64,000 bases of DNA from Methanosarcina sp. KYL-1. GTDB lineage: Archaea; Halobacteriota; Methanosarcinia; Methanosarcinales; Methanosarcinaceae. The notes under the pieces were generated by a model. It saw only the letters and a program-made list of their open reading frames with translations. It searched no databases and was not told where the DNA came from. The stretch covers positions 124,001 through 188,000 of the forward strand of contig NZ_VOUA01000002.1 in NCBI RefSeq assembly GCF_024372725.1, read 5' to 3'. The first letter of the stretch is position 1. Every line of letters begins with the position of its first letter. The position numbers and the translations under genes were made by a program. This document shows, piece after piece, positions 36,705 to 47,164 of this stretch.

Positions 36705-37682
36705 TTAATATTTTTCTCTCTTTTTGACGGTATACCTGAATTCCGGTTCGGGCATTTTTTCCAGTTCAACAAGTTTGATAGGTTCTGCTCCTGCTTCTAC
36801 TTTCACTTTCCCTGGGCTTTCTTCCTCTCTGAAGGAAGAGGTTTCCCGTTTTTTCCCTTTCTCTTTCTTTTCTCTTTTCCCAACTGTCCTGAGTTTCTGT
36901 TCGTATTTTTCCAGTGAGCCGTTCCCAACTGGGAGCTTAATTTCCGGAATCTCCGGCTTCTTTTTTACGAATACGACACCTACAAATAGGATCAGGGCAG
37001 TGGCAAGGTATACGAAAATGCTCGGATGAAGCTCTTCCTTAAGTATGAAAGGCTCATCGTAGGAAACGTTCACTTCTTTTGAAACCGTCCCGTACCCGGT
37101 TTTCTTGATTTTTAACGGGTATGTCCCCTCCTCTGTATGGAAGGCCACAGGTGTGGTTCCTTTGTATTTCCCATCAAAGTAAACTCTTGCCCCGCTGGGC
37201 TTGGAAGAAATGCTGCAGACTCCCTCTTTAAGGCTGAGCTTTTTTGAGATTACTTCCGGTTCTCCGGCTCCTTTAACAAGAACGCGCTCGAAGACGTCGT
37301 TATATCCCTCCTGCTTCAGTACCACTTCATAGAATCCTGATGGTACATCGGTTAGCCGGGCGGGGGTAGTTCCCATTAATACGCCATTTATGTATATTTC
37401 TGAGCCGTTGGGGATAGTTATTATTTCGATTTTCCCTGAATCAGCCGCTTCTTTGACTGCATTTTTGAGCTCTTCATCTGTGGATGTGTTCTGCTGAATG
37501 GTTAAATTCTCCCCACTTCCCATCTGGGCGGGGATGGCTGCAGACGTATCGGCGAGCACATTTACTACTGATAGAGAAGTGAGGATCAGGAGAATGAAAA
37601 TTAAGCTGGCAAGGGGTTTTTTGAAGCCTCTCAGTTTCAGATTAGATTTGCGGTTTATTAAAGATCCCTTCGTTTTGAGCAA
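36705..37682 (-). CDS. PEGA domain surface protein
   Basis: A 325-aa membrane protein. A basic N-terminus and hydrophobic helix (about 25-45) act as signal/anchor. Two PEGA domains follow (about 85-150 and 155-215), each with the S/NGSxxYxxGxxxGTTP pattern (EIYINGVLMGTTPARL and RVYFDGKYKGTTPVAF). Then a transmembrane helix SIFVYLATALILFVGVVFV and a basic cytoplasmic tail of ~85 residues. PEGA repeats are usually extracellular. Convergent with the aminotransferase. Confidence 0.85.
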   Translation of the reverse strand: MLKTKGSLINRKSNLKLRGFKKPLASLIFILLILTSLSVVNVLADTSAAIPAQMGSGENLTIQQNTSTDEELKNAVKEAADSGKIEIITIPNGSEIYINGVLMGTTPARLTDVPSGFYEVVLKQEGYNDVFERVLVKGAGEPEVISKKLSLKEGVCSISSKPSGARVYFDGKYKGTTPVAFHTEEGTYPLKIKKTGYGTVSKEVNVSYDEPFILKEELHPSIFVYLATALILFVGVVFVKKKPEIPEIKLPVGNGSLEKYEQKLRTVGKREKKEKGKKRETSSFREEESPGKVKVEAGAEPIKLVELEKMPEPEFRYTVKKREKY

Positions 37683-39682: not shown

Positions 39683-42600
39683 TTAAAACTTCTTTTTCCG
39701 CATCCCCAGATAGATTCCTCCTGCTGCTACGAGCACGAACAAAGTGCCCACTGCATCAGCACCTGAGAACGACATGCCACCGGACTCTTTTTCGACAGTC
39801 TCCTTTGTCATCTCATAGCCTTCAACGTAGTCGCTTGCCTGCTCCGAACCCTTTGAAGGTGCTGGAGCCTGCTCAACACTGGTCCCGTAGCCTGCATCAG
39901 ATACGGCAGTCTGGTTGCCGGAATTGCTGCCGGTAGAATCTACCACAGTAGCACTTCCGGTGCTGTGGCTGCTGTGGCTGCTGCTGCTCGTACTGGACTG
40001 CACAGGCTCCCTCTGTGTTGCCTCCTGCATCAGCCTCTCGTATTCTTTTGCAGTATCCGGGTCGACAACACCCGGGACAGACATAACACCCTGTATATAT
40101 TCATCAAGCAGGGCATTGCCGCAGGTATGGTGACAGCAGGTGACGCCGTTTTCGACCACCGATTCCACATACTCACTCACGAGAGTTTGAATGACTTCGT
40201 CGGAAGCATCCCAGTAGCCTTTCCGGGAAACCTCCAGCAATTGTGCGGTGATGGACTGATAGTTATAGGCATTTTCCTTAAAGAACTCCTCAAGTCCGAG
40301 GTTTTGTGAATCCAGTACATAGGTCTCGTATATCTTCTGCCACGCAGAATCCGAAACCGTTTCAGGAGTTGTTACTTCCCACATCCATAGGAATTCAACA
40401 AACCTGTCCATCTCCTGGGCTCCTGCAAAGCCGCTTTCCATCATTCCCTCGATCCAGCTTGGATTGAAGTAACGGGTGGTCAGTTCCCGGGTCAGCACCG
40501 TACTTAATTTTTCCGTTACAAGATCGTTCGAGTCGATGAAATTGTTGACGTACAGATCAGGCGTCGCACCGGACACATCCCTTACTGCAAGTGCAAGTCC
40601 TCCTAGCCAGGATACGAAATCATCATTATCCACAAGACCCATGAGGTTGCTGGCATCTGATTTTACAGCTACATCAACTGTTCCCAGAATCGATTTAAAC
40701 ACATCTGTATTTGATTTGTCCCAAATGTCAACTCCATAGAAGTTGTCCAGATTGTCTATGAAGAGTTCAGCAAGCTTTGATTCGTCATCCCATGTTTCAC
40801 TTGCTCCTATCGAATCCTCAAGCCCGGTTCCGTAAACACCTGACTGGCGGCTGACCACCCTGGATTCTGAAAGCAGCTTTGCTTCTTCCTCCGTATAGTT
40901 CTGCGCGATCAACTGTTGGTACATTGTTTCAGAATGCTGTTTCACATAGTTAGGATATGTGGAGTTTTCCGCATTTGCTGCAAGCCGTACAGCATAATCT
41001 ATCATCTCCAGCTTATCAGGATACATATCCCTGTACAACCCGGATGATACGTAAAGAATGTCTATTCTTGGTCTTCCCAGCTCACTTTCAGGGATCACAG
41101 TAAAACCTTGCAGGTTAATCCTGCCATTTTTATCCCAAGCAGGTTCAACACCAAGCAGATACAAAACTTCAGCTTCTGTTATTCCTCTGTTGCGAATAAG
41201 CTCAGTCGAGAATGCAACAAAAGCTATGGTCTCCGGGTATGCCCCATCATGTTCTCCCTGATATAGCTCAATTGTCTGGTTTGCAATATTCACACCTGCC
41301 AGCCACTCGGCATATCCTGGTACAGTGCGTGAATCAAGTGAATAGAAATTGATACCTGTTGGCAGGGAATTGGGGCTTCTTATAGGATCGTTTCCACTAT
41401 CCGGTTCAATATATCCACCATTCAGTGCACGGAGTATGTTTGGTATTTCCTGTTTACAATCAAGAATATTCTGATAGTATACGGCAGCCTGTTCAAGATA
41501 TGTTGTCACGTTCGGATCTGTAGTTCCAAGTATCCGGTCCTGTGCATCAGTTACAGATGCGTTATTTAAGAGAACTTCTTCTAGCAAGAGGGTAGATACG
41601 TTCGCAGAGCTATTAATGGAATCAACAGTATCGATGTAATCATCTCCGAGCATTAAGCGTATCATGCCTATTGTTTGTTCCTCGGGTGGTTGTTCACCAA
41701 GGACATGCATGCCATATGGCATACTGGCCGTTTCGAGTGATTCCAGATAAGGTTCAAGGGAATCTTCGAGGAACGTATCAAATTCGGTTTCGGTCATATT
41801 GCTCAATGATTCCGTGTCCGTTCCGAGGGCGTCGACTATATTAAGCTCAGTGTATTCCTGAACTATGAGATTCCTGTATTGTGCCTTTATAATTTCATCA
41901 ATGCTTACATCGTTGTACTGTTTGATGTAATCTGACAGGTTTTCGTAACCACCATATAATCTGGCTTCAATAATCGGCGAGGTCAAATGGTCCAAAATAA
42001 GTGCACTTCCACGTCTTTTTGCCTGTATTCCCTCACCTACATCGTCCATTATGTATGGATAGATTATCGGTACTTCTCCTGCCATCACTGCAGGCCAGTC
42101 ATATCTGGACAATGCCACGTCTTTACCTGGTAGCCATTCCTGCGTACCGTGTGTTCCTAAATGCATTATGGCATCAGCTTCATACTCGTGCTGGAGCCAC
42201 AGGTAATAGGCAAGGTACTGGTGATGCGGGGGAAGTGATGCGTTATGATATAAAGCATCTGCATCCTGGTCCCATCCTCTGGTCGGTTGCGGGCCGAGTA
42301 TAATACTACCAAACTCGATGCGCGGGATAACGAAGTAGTTTCCGGATTCATTATTATATACCATTATCTCGCCGGGAGCCGGACCCCACTGGTCAATAAT
42401 ATCTTCCTGATTCTCTTCCGGAAGAGCACTGAACCATTTCATGTATTCCTCAACAGGCCACAGCACTACTTTCCCGGTGGCAACCATATTTTCAAGTTCC
42501 CCGGGTGCCCAGGTACCAATATTCCTTCCCTGAAGGATCATCAGATCCACAAGTTCGGTCTCGTTTGGAATTGGCTCTGTCCCGGTATCATATCCGGAAG

Positions 42601-44230
42601 CATTCATAGCTTCTACAAGATTGCAGAGACTCTCAGGCACATCCAGATACATTGCATTAAAGTTGTTTTTACCTCCGCCGTGGTTGTAATAAAGGATGGC
42701 AACCTTCTTTTCGGAATTAGGGGTTTCTCCAAGCCGCGCGTGATTGATACTGCGGGAAACCAGCCACTCAACATGATCTTCGAGAGGGTCAACATTGTAT
42801 GTTACACCATCATCGTTTCTATTCTTCCAGCTGAGGATAATTGGTTCAAATATGCCTTCAAACTCCTGCAGAACTATATTACGGGCAATATCATCCGAGG
42901 ATAAACCGATACCGGTGTTTTCCCAGTCTTCTTTTGAACCCTGATAGGTAGCACCGTTCGTATCATAAAAACAATTGATTCCGTGCAGTACAGGTACATT
43001 CATCATATTGAAATAATCAATTACCATCTCGGAGGTGATGTCTTTATTGGCCTGCCCAAGGGAATAGCCTCTCAGTGAAATAACAGCATCTACAACAGGA
43101 GTTCCGTTTGGCATGAAATACTCCAGTGAACTCATATCTTGGACATTGAATGAGGCAAACATTGCATTACATCCCCTTGATTCTATCTCACTGATAAGGG
43201 CATCTTCAACTTTAGAGGTGAGTGAGTCCGAAGGAACCTGATAATCCAGTATTCCTACGGTAATGTTATCAGGGTTGTATTTGCCGGTTGAAGCGTACCA
43301 CTCCAGATACTCTTCAGTTGTCTGGTATATTTCAGGTGCGTCGGGATGATAAAAACCATATACGGACCTTGGCACCGGATCAAGTATTTCCAGCGGTGCG
43401 TCTTTGTAGGTGGCAGCAAGGAATATTGTGAGACGGCGCATGTTCTCCTCGCCTTTATACACCCAGTACTCTTCAATAGTTTCAAACTCCGTCGAAGATG
43501 TATTGACATTGCCAAAACCTTCTATTAAACTGGTATGTAGAGTTAGTACGGTAGCATTATTTTGTTCCATAGCCTCCGTCGAAAGGTACGTTGCAGATGA
43601 TATCCAGTCGGAACTTAGCATTTCAAGCATGATGATGTATTCTGTGACCAGACTTGCTGGCATCTCATCTACTGAAGTGACTACATTGACCCGAACATAT
43701 TTGCTTATCAGAGGATCATCATTTACCAGGAGTAAACCTGCTTTTACCCCGCTGGCACCTGTGATATATGTAATATTAATTCTATCTTCAGGTGGCTCTG
43801 GCAGATCATAGGAATTGGTAGAATTACCAAGTAAATAGTGATCCATGTAAAGTACCATGTTAGCAATATTCGAATCTCCGCCATACACCCAGTACTTTGT
43901 GAGATTATTGTCCGGTGTGTTTATAACGGACGAATTTGATAAATTATATCCGCAAACGACTGCACTTGCGTTTAGATTTAAATTCAAAAGAGTGCTGTCA
44001 TTTAGTGAAGCAAGGAATACAACGCTTGCATTTGACAGATCAGGAACGTGTTCATGATCATAGATCTGGAGGTTAACCGAACTATTTGTTTTTGCATTTA
44101 CAAGGAACTGATAATTTTCATCGGTTCCAAGAACAAAAGTCAGCTCATTAGAATTTGCGGATACAACAGTTGTTAATGAAACTAACAACAACAGGCTTAA
44201 GATTAATGTTGGTATGTGTTTATGTTGCAT
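39683..44230 (-). CDS. Surface-exposed CobN/BchH-like chelatase, membrane anchored
   Basis: A 1515-aa CobN/magnesium-chelatase-H-type protein with an export signal: residues 1-25 are a signal peptide (LILSLLLLVSLTTVVSA), and 1494-1510 form a C-terminal transmembrane helix ending RKKKF, after a Ser/Thr-rich stalk (about 1411-1440). The chelatase body has the signature HLGTHGTQEWLPGK (690-703), DVGEGIQAKRRG and the C-terminal CCHHTCG cluster (1365-1371). Many N-x-S/T sequons fit surface glycosylation. Ordinary CobN inserts Co into corrin rings in the cytosol with ATP-dependent CobS/CobT; an external one has no ATP. The genes before it on this strand (DUF2149, ExbB, DUF2162) suggest ion-driven energisation. 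Substrate unproven; corrinoid or other metal-tetrapyrrole inferred. Confidence 0.88.
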   Translation of the reverse strand: MQHKHIPTLILSLLLLVSLTTVVSANSNELTFVLGTDENYQFLVNAKTNSSVNLQIYDHEHVPDLSNASVVFLASLNDSTLLNLNLNASAVVCGYNLSNSSVINTPDNNLTKYWVYGGDSNIANMVLYMDHYLLGNSTNSYDLPEPPEDRINITYITGASGVKAGLLLVNDDPLISKYVRVNVVTSVDEMPASLVTEYIIMLEMLSSDWISSATYLSTEAMEQNNATVLTLHTSLIEGFGNVNTSSTEFETIEEYWVYKGEENMRRLTIFLAATYKDAPLEILDPVPRSVYGFYHPDAPEIYQTTEEYLEWYASTGKYNPDNITVGILDYQVPSDSLTSKVEDALISEIESRGCNAMFASFNVQDMSSLEYFMPNGTPVVDAVISLRGYSLGQANKDITSEMVIDYFNMMNVPVLHGINCFYDTNGATYQGSKEDWENTGIGLSSDDIARNIVLQEFEGIFEPIILSWKNRNDDGVTYNVDPLEDHVEWLVSRSINHARLGETPNSEKKVAILYYNHGGGKNNFNAMYLDVPESLCNLVEAMNASGYDTGTEPIPNETELVDLMILQGRNIGTWAPGELENMVATGKVVLWPVEEYMKWFSALPEENQEDIIDQWGPAPGEIMVYNNESGNYFVIPRIEFGSIILGPQPTRGWDQDADALYHNASLPPHHQYLAYYLWLQHEYEADAIMHLGTHGTQEWLPGKDVALSRYDWPAVMAGEVPIIYPYIMDDVGEGIQAKRRGSALILDHLTSPIIEARLYGGYENLSDYIKQYNDVSIDEIIKAQYRNLIVQEYTELNIVDALGTDTESLSNMTETEFDTFLEDSLEPYLESLETASMPYGMHVLGEQPPEEQTIGMIRLMLGDDYIDTVDSINSSANVSTLLLEEVLLNNASVTDAQDRILGTTDPNVTTYLEQAAVYYQNILDCKQEIPNILRALNGGYIEPDSGNDPIRSPNSLPTGINFYSLDSRTVPGYAEWLAGVNIANQTIELYQGEHDGAYPETIAFVAFSTELIRNRGITEAEVLYLLGVEPAWDKNGRINLQGFTVIPESELGRPRIDILYVSSGLYRDMYPDKLEMIDYAVRLAANAENSTYPNYVKQHSETMYQQLIAQNYTEEEAKLLSESRVVSRQSGVYGTGLEDSIGASETWDDESKLAELFIDNLDNFYGVDIWDKSNTDVFKSILGTVDVAVKSDASNLMGLVDNDDFVSWLGGLALAVRDVSGATPDLYVNNFIDSNDLVTEKLSTVLTRELTTRYFNPSWIEGMMESGFAGAQEMDRFVEFLWMWEVTTPETVSDSAWQKIYETYVLDSQNLGLEEFFKENAYNYQSITAQLLEVSRKGYWDASDEVIQTLVSEYVESVVENGVTCCHHTCGNALLDEYIQGVMSVPGVVDPDTAKEYERLMQEATQREPVQSSTSSSSHSSHSTGSATVVDSTGSNSGNQTAVSDAGYGTSVEQAPAPSKGSEQASDYVEGYEMTKETVEKESGGMSFSGADAVGTLFVLVAAGGIYLGMRKKKF

Positions 44231-44489
44231 GTTATCTCCTCAATAATATGCAGGACATCCACCACTTTGCTTGCTGGCTGCTCGGGGATGCTGCCTTCAA
44301 CTCATATTACCAAAAAATCCATCGTTTGATCATTCGCTTTCCTCGAAAATACCGAAAGCTCTCACTAATCCCATAGAATAAAGAGAACTTCCGGCAGGGG
44401 TTTTTTGTAAATAGAATTTAATTTCAATGCGAGGAACTAAAGTAAAGGTGTTTTAAATCAGATATAGTTGATTTAAATTTTGAAAAAAA
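44231..44489 (-). other. Gap between the ExbD-like gene and the CobN-like gene
   Basis: 259 nt. A perfect inverted repeat TTTAAATCA (44452-44460) / TGATTTAAA (44469-44477) lies just after the DUF2149 stop and may end that transcript or form a processing hairpin. Nearer to the CobN-like start a GGAGATAAC ribosome-binding site is present. I looked for cobalamin-riboswitch motifs and saw none. Confidence 0.5.
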
Positions 44490-44870
44490 TTAATCCGAGG
44501 CAGATGTCTCGTTACCTTCAGCACTTTCAGGCACGTAGATAACCCTGCCGTCAGCCAGTTTATAAGCTGTCCCGAGAGCTTCTCCCGTCCCTCCTCCGAT
44601 GTTATCGGTCATGTTCAGGACTTCAATGGGCCGCCCTTCTTCCTTGATAATGATTTTCATATCCTGAGCTCCCGGATTTTTCACGATTGTAATATCTTCA
44701 TTGGGGTTCAGGAGTTCCGGGAGCTGGTAGGACATTACCAGGGCCACGAGCAGGGCCACGGAAAAGACCATTGCCACGTCGAAAAGGTTGGCAACCCCGG
44801 TAAGGGGGTTTTGCTCTTCAGGGTCTGCAAGGAGGCCCGTCCGGTGGTAGCGTCTTGATTTTCGTCTCAT
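44490..44870 (-). CDS. DUF2149 protein, ExbD-like
   Basis: A 126-aa membrane protein with ExbD/TolR topology: a short basic cytoplasmic N-terminus, one transmembrane helix (about 29-48, NLFDVAMVFSVALLVALVMS) and an exported C-terminal domain. D31 at the start of the helix matches the conserved proton-path aspartate of ExbD/TolR. It lies 2 nt after the ExbB-like gene. In ExbB/ExbD systems this subunit couples ion flow to work outside the membrane. The energised partner here would be the surface CobN-like protein. Confidence 0.82.
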   Translation of the reverse strand: MRRKSRRYHRTGLLADPEEQNPLTGVANLFDVAMVFSVALLVALVMSYQLPELLNPNEDITIVKNPGAQDMKIIIKEEGRPIEVLNMTDNIGGGTGEALGTAYKLADGRVIYVPESAEGNETSASD

Positions 44871-44872
44871 CC

Positions 44873-45499
44873 TTACTCTCCGGCTTTTTCTTCGATTGTG
44901 TCAAGGATGTAATCGATATCTGACATGTCTTCCCAGTACCAGCGCCTCCTGACCTGGGTCAGGACATAGCCGATGATTCCGGCAAACAGGCCGACGACCG
45001 TGGTGGCAAAAGCGATCATCAGGTTGTTTGCAAGTGTGGCAATGTCTCCGCTTGAAAGCCCGATAAGGGCCGGACCGAGAGGGATGAGGGTTCCCATGAG
45101 CCCGAGCATGGGGGAAATAGTTGCAACGATCTTCGTGTGCTCAAGGCGTTTGGCCATTCTGATTTCATAGTCCTCGGCAAGCCTTTCGATAGCCGGGAAG
45201 TTCAGGTCGTTAAGGTACTTCGAAGCTTCTTTTGAAAAGGAAGTTACCATATAGTTCTGTTTTATGTTCTCCAGAATCCCGGAAGCCTCCGAAAAGTTTG
45301 AATTCCGACACGCTTTCCTGAGACCTTTGCAATGTACTTCCAGACCGGCCCTGTCCCTGTGCCGCTTTGCGTACTCCGAGAGAAATTCCCCGATAAGAAT
45401 CAGGGAGGAGAGCACAAGGAGCATCAGAACCAGGATTACCGGATAGAGCAGGGCTGAGGAAAAGGTATACATCATCTCAAAGAGAGGGCCCGTGCTCAT
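44873..45499 (-). CDS. MotA/TolQ/ExbB family proton-channel protein
   Basis: A 208-aa protein with three predicted transmembrane helices: about 14-36 (YPVILVLMLLVLSSLILIGEFL), about 127-145 (ATISPMLGLMGTLIPLGPALIGL) and about 155-180 (LMIAFATTVVGLFAGIIGYVLTQV). The ISPMLGLMGTLIPLG segment is the ExbB/TolQ family hallmark, including the Thr that lines the ion path. It overlaps the DUF2162 gene by 4 bp (ATGA) and is followed after 2 nt by the DUF2149 gene, so the three are translationally coupled. Confidence 0.9.
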   Translation of the reverse strand: MSTGPLFEMMYTFSSALLYPVILVLMLLVLSSLILIGEFLSEYAKRHRDRAGLEVHCKGLRKACRNSNFSEASGILENIKQNYMVTSFSKEASKYLNDLNFPAIERLAEDYEIRMAKRLEHTKIVATISPMLGLMGTLIPLGPALIGLSSGDIATLANNLMIAFATTVVGLFAGIIGYVLTQVRRRWYWEDMSDIDYILDTIEEKAGE

Positions 45500-46173
45500 T
45501 GTTCAGACCTCACATGCCCGAGGAAAAACCCTCCAAGAATAATGAGCCCCAGTATCAGGAGGGGAACCACTCCGGAACTGCCTCCGTCCAGAGCCGTAAG
45601 GTGCAGCTGTTTCGTTTTCATGTAGGCAGGGATAAGCAAAGCACCGAGGAGGTAATAGATCCCGATGAGCATCATGACGGTCCCCAGGGTCTCGGGGGTC
45701 TTGCCCATCTTCCTAAATAGGAGAGAAGAGCCTACAACCGCCACAAAAAAAGCAGTCCCTACAAGAAGTCCGATCTTCAGCCCTCCAATGTCGAGGGTAG
45801 AAGCCAGTAGCATGCAGGAGACTGCAAGAGCCGCAAGGCAGACAGGGCAGGGCATTGAGATAAAGAGGAAGGTGTGCCTTGAAACATCCCTACCGGAGTT
45901 CCATTTTTTCTGGGTGTAAATCCCGGCCCCAATAAGAAGCAGGGACACTAAGACATGAATTCCCATACCCATAGAAGAAATTTTTTCAAAACTATCCATG
46001 TTTATCCGGTCAACAACAGTTCCGAAAACCAGGGCCAAAAAGAAGTAACTGCTTCCGACTGCAAGGATTTCTCTCGTTTTGAGGTTTGAAAATCCGCAAC
46101 CTAATCCAGTTTTAAGCCCGAAGATAAGGATACCTATTAAAATCCCAATAACAGTTAATGCCGCAGAGTCCAT
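45496..46173 (-). CDS. DUF2162 membrane protein with CPVC motif
   Basis: A 225-aa integral membrane protein with about six helices, belonging to the DUF2162 predicted transporter family. Striking cysteines: C26 in the GLGCGFSN helix, and C109/C112 in the motif CPVC followed by C120, within a helix. The pattern recalls CcdA/DsbD-type thiol carriers or a metal path. It is the first gene of the minus-strand unit DUF2162-ExbB-DUF2149, with the 14-bp palindrome 50 nt upstream. Confidence 0.8.
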   Translation of the reverse strand: MDSAALTVIGILIGILIFGLKTGLGCGFSNLKTREILAVGSSYFFLALVFGTVVDRINMDSFEKISSMGMGIHVLVSLLLIGAGIYTQKKWNSGRDVSRHTFLFISMPCPVCLAALAVSCMLLASTLDIGGLKIGLLVGTAFFVAVVGSSLLFRKMGKTPETLGTVMMLIGIYYLLGALLIPAYMKTKQLHLTALDGGSSGVVPLLILGLIILGGFFLGHVRSEQ

Positions 46174-46618
46174 GTTATCTTCTGAGCATTTAGGATGGAA
46201 TTAAATAAAAACTGGTTTTTGGCTAACGATCGTTAGTATTTATGCTAACGACACGTCAGATGACAGTGATTTTTCAGATTATTAACAGTTCACATCCTCC
46301 TACAAACCAGACATAAAGGAGAGAGGGAAGATTTTAAAAATTGTAATTAAAGAGGGGAAAAGAAGAATAAGACCCAATGAAAAAAAATAACAAGCGACTT
46401 GATGTTAAAAATAAATCAAGTTTTAACATAAATTATGCCACAATTAACCCCGTTAACATCCAGGCCATTGGGAGAGAAATGAGGGAACTAAAAACAAAAT
46501 ACAAGTAAATTTGATAAAATATGAAATTAAAAAGTGAATGAAAAGATGAAAAATAAATATTACTTGTGTTTAATTAAAGCAATAATTATAAGTAATGGAG
46601 GTAAAATAGGGACTCATT
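46174..46618. promoter_or_regulatory. Divergent control region of the chelatase cluster
   Basis: 445 nt between the DUF2162 and ArsR genes. It contains the palindrome and half-site at 46223-46251. For the minus-strand unit TTTTTATTTAATTCC (about 46196-46215) or CATAAATAC between the half-sites may be the TATA box. For the plus-strand gene, AATAATTATAAG (about 46581-46592) would place the start of transcription near the ATG, so a leaderless or short-leader message is likely. No gene is seen in the A-rich middle. Confidence 0.6.
46223..46251. promoter_or_regulatory. Operator candidate: 14-bp perfect palindrome plus half-site
   Basis: CTAACGATCGTTAG (46223-46236) is a perfect palindrome. A further GCTAACGA half-site at 46244-46251 repeats its left arm on the same strand. 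The pair straddles a possible TATA element 50-80 nt upstream of the DUF2162 start. The natural candidate to bind it is the divergent ArsR-type regulator. Confidence 0.65.
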
Positions 46619-47164
46619 ATGGTAGTAAGTTCCGTAAGAGATACAGGCATGAATGGAGGTGGTGAGAAGCTCTTCAAAGCGATCTCAAGCGACACCCGAC
46701 TTTCCATTCTGGAACGCCTGAGTGAAGGGGACACACATATATCAGCCCTGGCGAGGGAACTCGGGATTTCCGTACCCGTGGCTGCCAGGCATGTGAAAGT
46801 CCTGGAAGAGGCTGAACTTGTGGAGAGGAAAAAATTAGGGAACCTGCACATGATCGGCATCAAGTTGAGCAACATCTATTCTTTTATGGACCACTTTGCA
46901 GAAAACCGGAAACTTGAGGTTGAACAGGGCACCACTCTCCTTGAAGCCCTGAAAAGCGTTGCCGCCGTTGAGGTAAGGAAAATGGGAGACCGGGTAAAGG
47001 TCGTCTCCACGGACGGGGAAGAAGGTTTTTACGTTTATGAAGTTGATGGGAAGTTCTCGGACAGGACCGTGGACGAATACGTTTTTTGCGAAGATGTGGT
47101 GGTGGAGTGGAAAAAACTGATCCCGATAACCAAAAAAAGGCTTTTTGTGAATATAAAGAGGTGA
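46619..47164 (+). CDS. ArsR-type regulator with C-terminal DUF4430-like domain
   Basis: A 181-aa two-domain protein. Residues 17-95 form an ArsR-type winged helix (LFKAISSDTRLSILERLSEG, then ISALARELGISVPVAARHVKVLEEAELVERKK). Residues 97-181 (VEQGTTLLEALKSVAAV...GFYVYEVDGKFSD) resemble the beta-grasp DUF4430 domain found at the C-terminus of transcobalamin-like proteins; this is a pattern judgement. If correct, the regulator could sense a corrinoid. It is divergent from the chelatase cluster. ATG 46619 is the ORF start; ATG 46649 is an alternative. Confidence 0.75.
   Translation: MVVSSVRDTGMNGGGEKLFKAISSDTRLSILERLSEGDTHISALARELGISVPVAARHVKVLEEAELVERKKLGNLHMIGIKLSNIYSFMDHFAENRKLEVEQGTTLLEALKSVAAVEVRKMGDRVKVVSTDGEEGFYVYEVDGKFSDRTVDEYVFCEDVVVEWKKLIPITKKRLFVNIKR

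Follow-up and report, generated by a model that had tools for sequence, protein, structure and literature searches.

Among the closest described relatives of the operon reported here is hmuYRSTUV of Bacteroidota, which has a known S/U/V core and whose HmuS has a demonstrated metal-removing activity (PMC12583661). In Bacteroides thetaiotaomicron, the HmuS protein is bound to the membrane, acts as a heme de-chelatase and has a cryo-EM structure (PMC12583661). Its reaction requires no ATP, and the recombinant protein without its partners halts after 1-2 turnovers, the cause of which was left open by its authors. In the published scheme HmuU and HmuV are assigned to the TonB receptor. A cobN cluster resembling the archaeal genes, carried by plasmid pSZ77 of the bacterium Trichlorobacter lovleyi (Glov_3671 region), was noted in 2012 (BMC Genomics 2012). 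Regarding archaea, the 2025 HmuS paper calls the function of many CobN-like proteins unclear, and according to two papers the other genes of the operon are missing from archaea, or from Methanosarcina barkeri. No paper describing DUF2149 or DUF2162 with CobN in archaea was found in the literature searched.

Here we report complete T-U-V-S operons across archaea, correcting the statements of those two papers. Within the literature searched these operons are new, as are a non-heme active-site type common to cobalamin- and nickel-linked bacterial operons, a transcobalamin-like domain found both in the regulator R and in S proteins, and the case made against U and V energising a TonB receptor. We propose, with even confidence, that T-U-V-S could be the archaeal non-heme branch of an Hmu-type metal-extraction machine, in which S would demetallate, U and V would drive, T would import and R would sense corrinoid. 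Archaeal CobN-like proteins thereby gain a testable role, and the proposal suggests a route by which methanogens may acquire cobalt or nickel, on both of which methane formation depends.

Operon layout and conservation

The operon lies in a 64,000-nucleotide stretch of the Methanosarcina sp. KYL-1 genome (contig NZ_VOUA01000002.1, positions 124,001 to 188,000), hereafter the window (Table 1).

Table 1. Features of the window operon (positions are those of the window).
Feature	Description	Positions	Strand	Support
S	CobN/HmuS-like class I chelatase of 1515 aa, exported and anchored at its C-terminus	39683..44230	-	CobN-Mg_chel 1056.7 bits; hydropathy; active-site alignment
V	DUF2149, ExbD/TolR-like, single-pass, 126 aa, transmembrane Asp31	44490..44870	-	DUF2149 118.5 bits
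U	MotA/TolQ/ExbB-like channel protein, 208 aa, Thr137 and Thr167	44873..45499	-	MotA_ExbB 48 bits
T	DUF2162 multi-pass membrane protein, 225 aa, intramembrane PCPxC, candidate metal permease	45496..46173	-	DUF2162 233.2 bits
Inverted repeat	TCGTTAG-N8-CTAACGA upstream of T, candidate operator	46230..46251		Repeat recurs in related intergenic regions
R	Divergent ArsR-type regulator, 181 aa, C-terminal DUF4430 (transcobalamin-like)	46619..47164	+	ArsR-type HTH match

Transcription on the minus strand runs in the order T-U-V-S, with S last. A 4-base overlap joins T to U and only 2 bases separate U from V, so that the three form an operon; the gap from V to S is ~260 bases. We found no HmuY or HmuR genes among the ORFs flanking the operon, no TonB or outer-membrane receptor near it, and no credible riboswitch or other known RNA in its vicinity. 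Downstream, a PEGA-domain membrane protein is encoded on the minus strand (window 36705-37682); no connection to the operon was found.

As in hmuYRSTUV (HmuS/BtuS family), an exported, doubly anchored class I chelatase is encoded beside ExbB-like and DUF2149 genes, and the T-U-V order is retained. The window operon differs in lacking HmuY, HmuR and HmuT, in carrying DUF2162 in the T slot, in placing S after V, and in its host, as archaea have, to our knowledge, no outer membrane. The T. lovleyi cluster shares both the T-U-V-S order and a non-heme active site, its S being ~32% identical to the window S over aligned columns, but it is bacterial and its operon is surrounded by TonB receptors, exbB-exbD-tonB and cobalamin riboswitches.

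DUF2149 was detected in 124/186 genomes of the order and in 111/391 genomes sampled from the phylum. Among 80 archaeal V genes, U was adjacent in 77/80 and T in 64/80, while S was found no more than 4.5 kb away and in the same orientation in 48/80, an association that is partly by construction because the archaeal loci were picked by DUF2149. The T-U-V(-S) order recurred in most of the 80 loci, hence the arrangement is not due to chance. When only loci away from contig ends were considered, S was present at 45/69; the remaining third or so, TUV or UV loci without a neighboring S, count against the model. The T-U-V-S order spans Halobacteriota archaea and T. lovleyi. Bacterial forms of the core also occur as hmuSTUV in Bacteroidota, inside the hyp operon in Runella, and on plasmids in Azospirillum, a Comamonadaceae bacterium and Diaphorobacter. 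The Bacteroidota set (picked by HmuS) as well as T. lovleyi and Aureibacter (picked by S) are free of the DUF2149 selection bias. A plasmid search with T gave no match, yet the T. lovleyi plasmid has a DUF2162 gene, so this search was insensitive. The initial annotation of the window had placed the five open reading frames and their domains correctly, as judged by ORF calls and domain matches, and had staked its reading on a conserved neighborhood, which indeed recurs across archaea and bacteria. Conservation, export, the improbability of a TonB role and corrinoid links all stood in its interpretation; the hmuYRSTUV precedent was missed.

Export and active site of S

The export and anchor features expected from that annotation were all present. 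Export was judged by hydropathy and not by a signal-peptide program: the N-terminal hydrophobic segment reaches a Kyte-Doolittle maximum of 2.22 and the C-terminal one, followed by RKKK, a maximum of 1.66. Membrane segments are therefore found at both termini, as in the Hmu-system chelatase. S also carries a Ser/Thr-rich stalk and 27 N-X-S/T sequons, compared to 1 in the cytosolic CobN of the same genome. The CobN-like inventory of this genome comprises the window S, two more exported proteins and one cytosolic CobN, the latter adjoining a ChlI/ChlD-like AAA+/VWA gene. No TUV genes are found near the two further exported CobN-like genes, a tandem pair with FmdE-like and TrmO-like neighbors (L036:10307-19999 and L037, contig C17). 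A fragment of a second DUF2149 gene (L039, contig C4, 167948-168106) is probably a decayed copy.

Active-site residues were compared in an alignment of 77 sequences, including 47 archaeal exported S proteins, using HmuS numbering. In the window S, His662, His694, Glu698 and Glu733 align with catalytic His506, His538, Glu542 and Glu577 of HmuS, which are kept in 47/47, 44/47, 45/47 and 47/47 archaeal exported S proteins, respectively. Asp1204 occupies the position of His1209, leaving the catalytic pair His538/His1209 incomplete with only the His538 equivalent present; this position is Asp in 42/47 archaeal exported S proteins, as in several CobN. The HmuS heme ligands Met79 and His254 are replaced by Leu and Gly in the window S and are absent in archaeal S generally, and none of Met79, His254, His1209 and Glu1212 is kept among the 47 sequences. 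The Met-rich insertion is missing as well, with 0 Met in the matching columns of the window S versus a mean of 14.3 in HmuS. A tree built by a quick method, midpoint-rooted and with SH-aLRT support only, set the exported S, as one group, apart from cytosolic CobN/ChlH. The exported proteins split into HmuS, a bacterial non-heme set from cobalamin or nickel operons, and an archaeal set, the latter two pairing with support 99. With no heme ligands, no second catalytic His and no Met-rich insertion, and grouping as it does in the tree, the window S is, by the sequence criteria applied, a cousin of the heme-type HmuS and not a member. Assignment as a heme de-chelatase by membership was rejected on the active-site residues and the absent insertion.

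S shares the large-subunit family and the catalytic core with CobN of CobN-CobST and ChlH of ChlH-ChlID, and many CobN carry the same Asp at the His1209 position. Those enzymes are cytosolic, work with AAA+ partners and insert metal, whereas S is exported, stands beside an ExbB/ExbD-like pair and has no AAA+ partner, which places it outside the CobNST type. In cytosolic CobN of methanogens (L035:7466-11326 and L148:1021-4650), three Cys occupy HmuS positions 1207-1209, where Asp is usual in CobN. Three TUV-linked archaeal S proteins (L129:2788-7551, L131:4298-8881 and L134:9235-13965) have Phe at HmuS position 538 and have lost the Asp pair. They are possible non-catalytic members, and the lack of the catalytic His in these three counts against metal extraction.

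U and V as a candidate motor

Residues of U and V were aligned with the canonical ExbB and ExbD of T. lovleyi. The channel threonines of U were kept in 134/134 and 130/134 sequences and the transmembrane Asp of V in 133/134; U and V thus possess both hallmarks of ExbB/ExbD-type stators. The likeness extends to TolQ-TolR and MotA-MotB, but U and V have no TonB, TolA or flagellar client, and their conserved partner is a chelatase. AlphaFold2 models gave a confident prediction only for helix 22-49 of V (36 sequences), not for its outer domain, and were of poor quality for T (single sequence).

The T. lovleyi operon reads TonB receptor-T-U-V-S-exbB-exbD-tonB-TonB receptor, with the canonical exbB-exbD-tonB set separate from U and V. 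This separate set and the lack of an outer membrane in archaea imply that U and V should have a non-TonB client. Being the conserved partner, S is the obvious candidate, and we consider that S (or T) is probably the client rather than a TonB receptor. A TonB-type role of U and V was rejected on the basis of the separate T. lovleyi set together with the residue comparison. HmuT, HmuU and HmuV are hereby reframed: since U and V exist in organisms with no outer membrane and, elsewhere, next to a TonB set distinct from them, it is probably the chelatase or permease that they power.

No CobS/CobT or ChlI/ChlD-like gene was found accompanying the archaeal operons. Of 111 classified S proteins, 99 were exported, had U and V no more than 6 kb away and lacked a ChlI/D-like gene, a sampling that is partly by construction. 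Among the non-exported S, a ChlI/D-like gene was nearby in 3/9 and U/V in two. The initial annotation had anticipated both this absence of AAA+ partners and the improbability of a TonB-style role. We propose that U and V act as an ion-driven, ExbB/ExbD-like stator on S or on an S-T complex, forcing or resetting S and substituting for the AAA+ partners (CobST, ChlID) of the cytosolic enzymes. Such an action would fit both the halt of HmuS after 1-2 turnovers and its independence from ATP. On the other hand, recombinant HmuS works without U/V, so that one turnover is not strictly motor-dependent. In its general form, the proposal is that U/V may be a dedicated ion-motive-force motor of an extracytoplasmic chelatase, with an ExbB/ExbD-like stator replacing the AAA+ ATPase, common to archaea and bacteria and paired with a permease that can be exchanged to suit iron, nickel or cobalt. 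On this view, it would be a mistake to have Bacteroides HmuU/HmuV power the TonB receptor. We advance this generalization tentatively, with slightly less than even confidence.

At four loci (L144, L147, L151 and L162), U/V pairs that have neither T nor S with them adjoin giant exported proteins of ~2000-2800 aa. These proteins carry domains of the CARDB, PQQ-type beta-propeller and alpha-alpha toroid kinds; a search of the giant proteins at T-less U/V pairs found no DUF4430. The U/V motor may therefore serve other surface proteins too.

Candidate permease, regulator and the choice of metal

In T, Pro108, Cys109, Pro110 and Cys112 are invariant and Cys26 nearly so. The T slot is occupied by DUF2162 in archaea, including the window, and in T. 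lovleyi, by HmuT in Bacteroidota, and by a NicO/UreH-like protein with a HAFEADH motif in the Runella hyp operon. HmuT sequences gave no credible Pfam match, no DUF2162 match and no PCPxC. A slot whose type changes with the metal fits a permease, and T would carry the released metal inward. Alternatively, T could pass electrons outward via its cysteines, a role consistent with the requirement of HmuS for reduced heme.

DUF4430 is the type of domain found at the transcobalamin C-terminus (PMC4350170). It scores 39.1 bits in the R homologue at L059 (cut-off 23.8). Three Methanosarcina genomes have a match above this threshold, which in two cases was confirmed by position to be R. The window R reaches only 15.8 bits and DUF4430 is no proof of corrinoid binding, both of which count against a corrinoid model. 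PDB searches with R returned ArsR-type HTH folds only, with no match for the C-terminal domain. The inverted repeat upstream of T is found again, as GTTA-N10-TAAC, in 6/8 R-T intergenic regions. The repeat and the DUF4430 of R suggest that the operon may be controlled by corrinoid, which R would sense through this domain.

Several genomic links connect the operon to corrinoids and cobalt, in agreement with the initial annotation. CbiM-CbiN-CbiQ-CbiO precede T-U-V-S in L060 and L143, both with cbiD/cbiE alongside. Behind S, L146 and L153 carry CbiM-CbiQ-CbiO, and L140 a cut-off CbiM; in L137, CbiO with cbiD/cbiE lies ~4 kb from TUVS. Two cobalamin riboswitches directly precede the T. lovleyi operon and in Azospirillum one separates V from an ABC transporter, while in archaeal loci L155 and L156 DUF4430 and a beta-propeller are fused to S. 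As to whether metal is inserted into, removed from or imported from corrinoids, which that annotation had not distinguished, removal is much more likely than insertion because HmuS was shown to remove metal (PMC12583661). The most likely function of S, as a class I chelatase held at the outside of the cytoplasmic membrane, would be to extract cobalt, or less likely nickel, from corrinoid-like rings.

Cobalt is favored over nickel, although some CbiM-type transporters carry nickel. The same machine might instead act on Ni chelates shed by other cells, F430 among them, and take their nickel, in line with the Runella U-V-CobN and NicO/UreH-like permease inside the hyp operon and with nikR beside the Azospirillum set. 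A protein annotated as CobN1, which a hydrogenotrophic methanogen made at high level only when Ni was limiting (PMC12350162), may point the same way. We regard nickel as unlikely in view of the cobalamin riboswitches and cobalamin genes around the operon of T. lovleyi, the closest bacterial T-U-V-S operon, the cbiD/cbiE genes at L060 and L143, and the DUF4430 domains in R and the S fusions. These fusions, the three TUV-linked S proteins without the catalytic His, and BtuF-like genes near some U/V pairs would also suit a scheme without demetallation, in which S binds intact corrinoids outside and a U/V-powered handover to T imports the whole cobamide. This is improbable given the retention of His538 (44/47) and Glu577 (47/47) in archaeal exported S and the de-chelatase activity of HmuS; in addition, T is small and its PCPxC would suit a metal better than a corrinoid.

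Finally, S could be an archaeal heme de-chelatase that frees iron, as proposed for the BtuS proteins of M. barkeri, which change with iron source (PMC10846266). Despite the homology of S to HmuS, we consider this very unlikely, as the window S has neither Met79 and His254 nor the His1209/Glu1212 partners, contains no Met-rich insertion and falls outside the HmuS group in the tree. The iron-from-heme reading of the M. barkeri proteome study thus appears disfavored by the active site, and extraction of cobalt from corrinoids is preferred.
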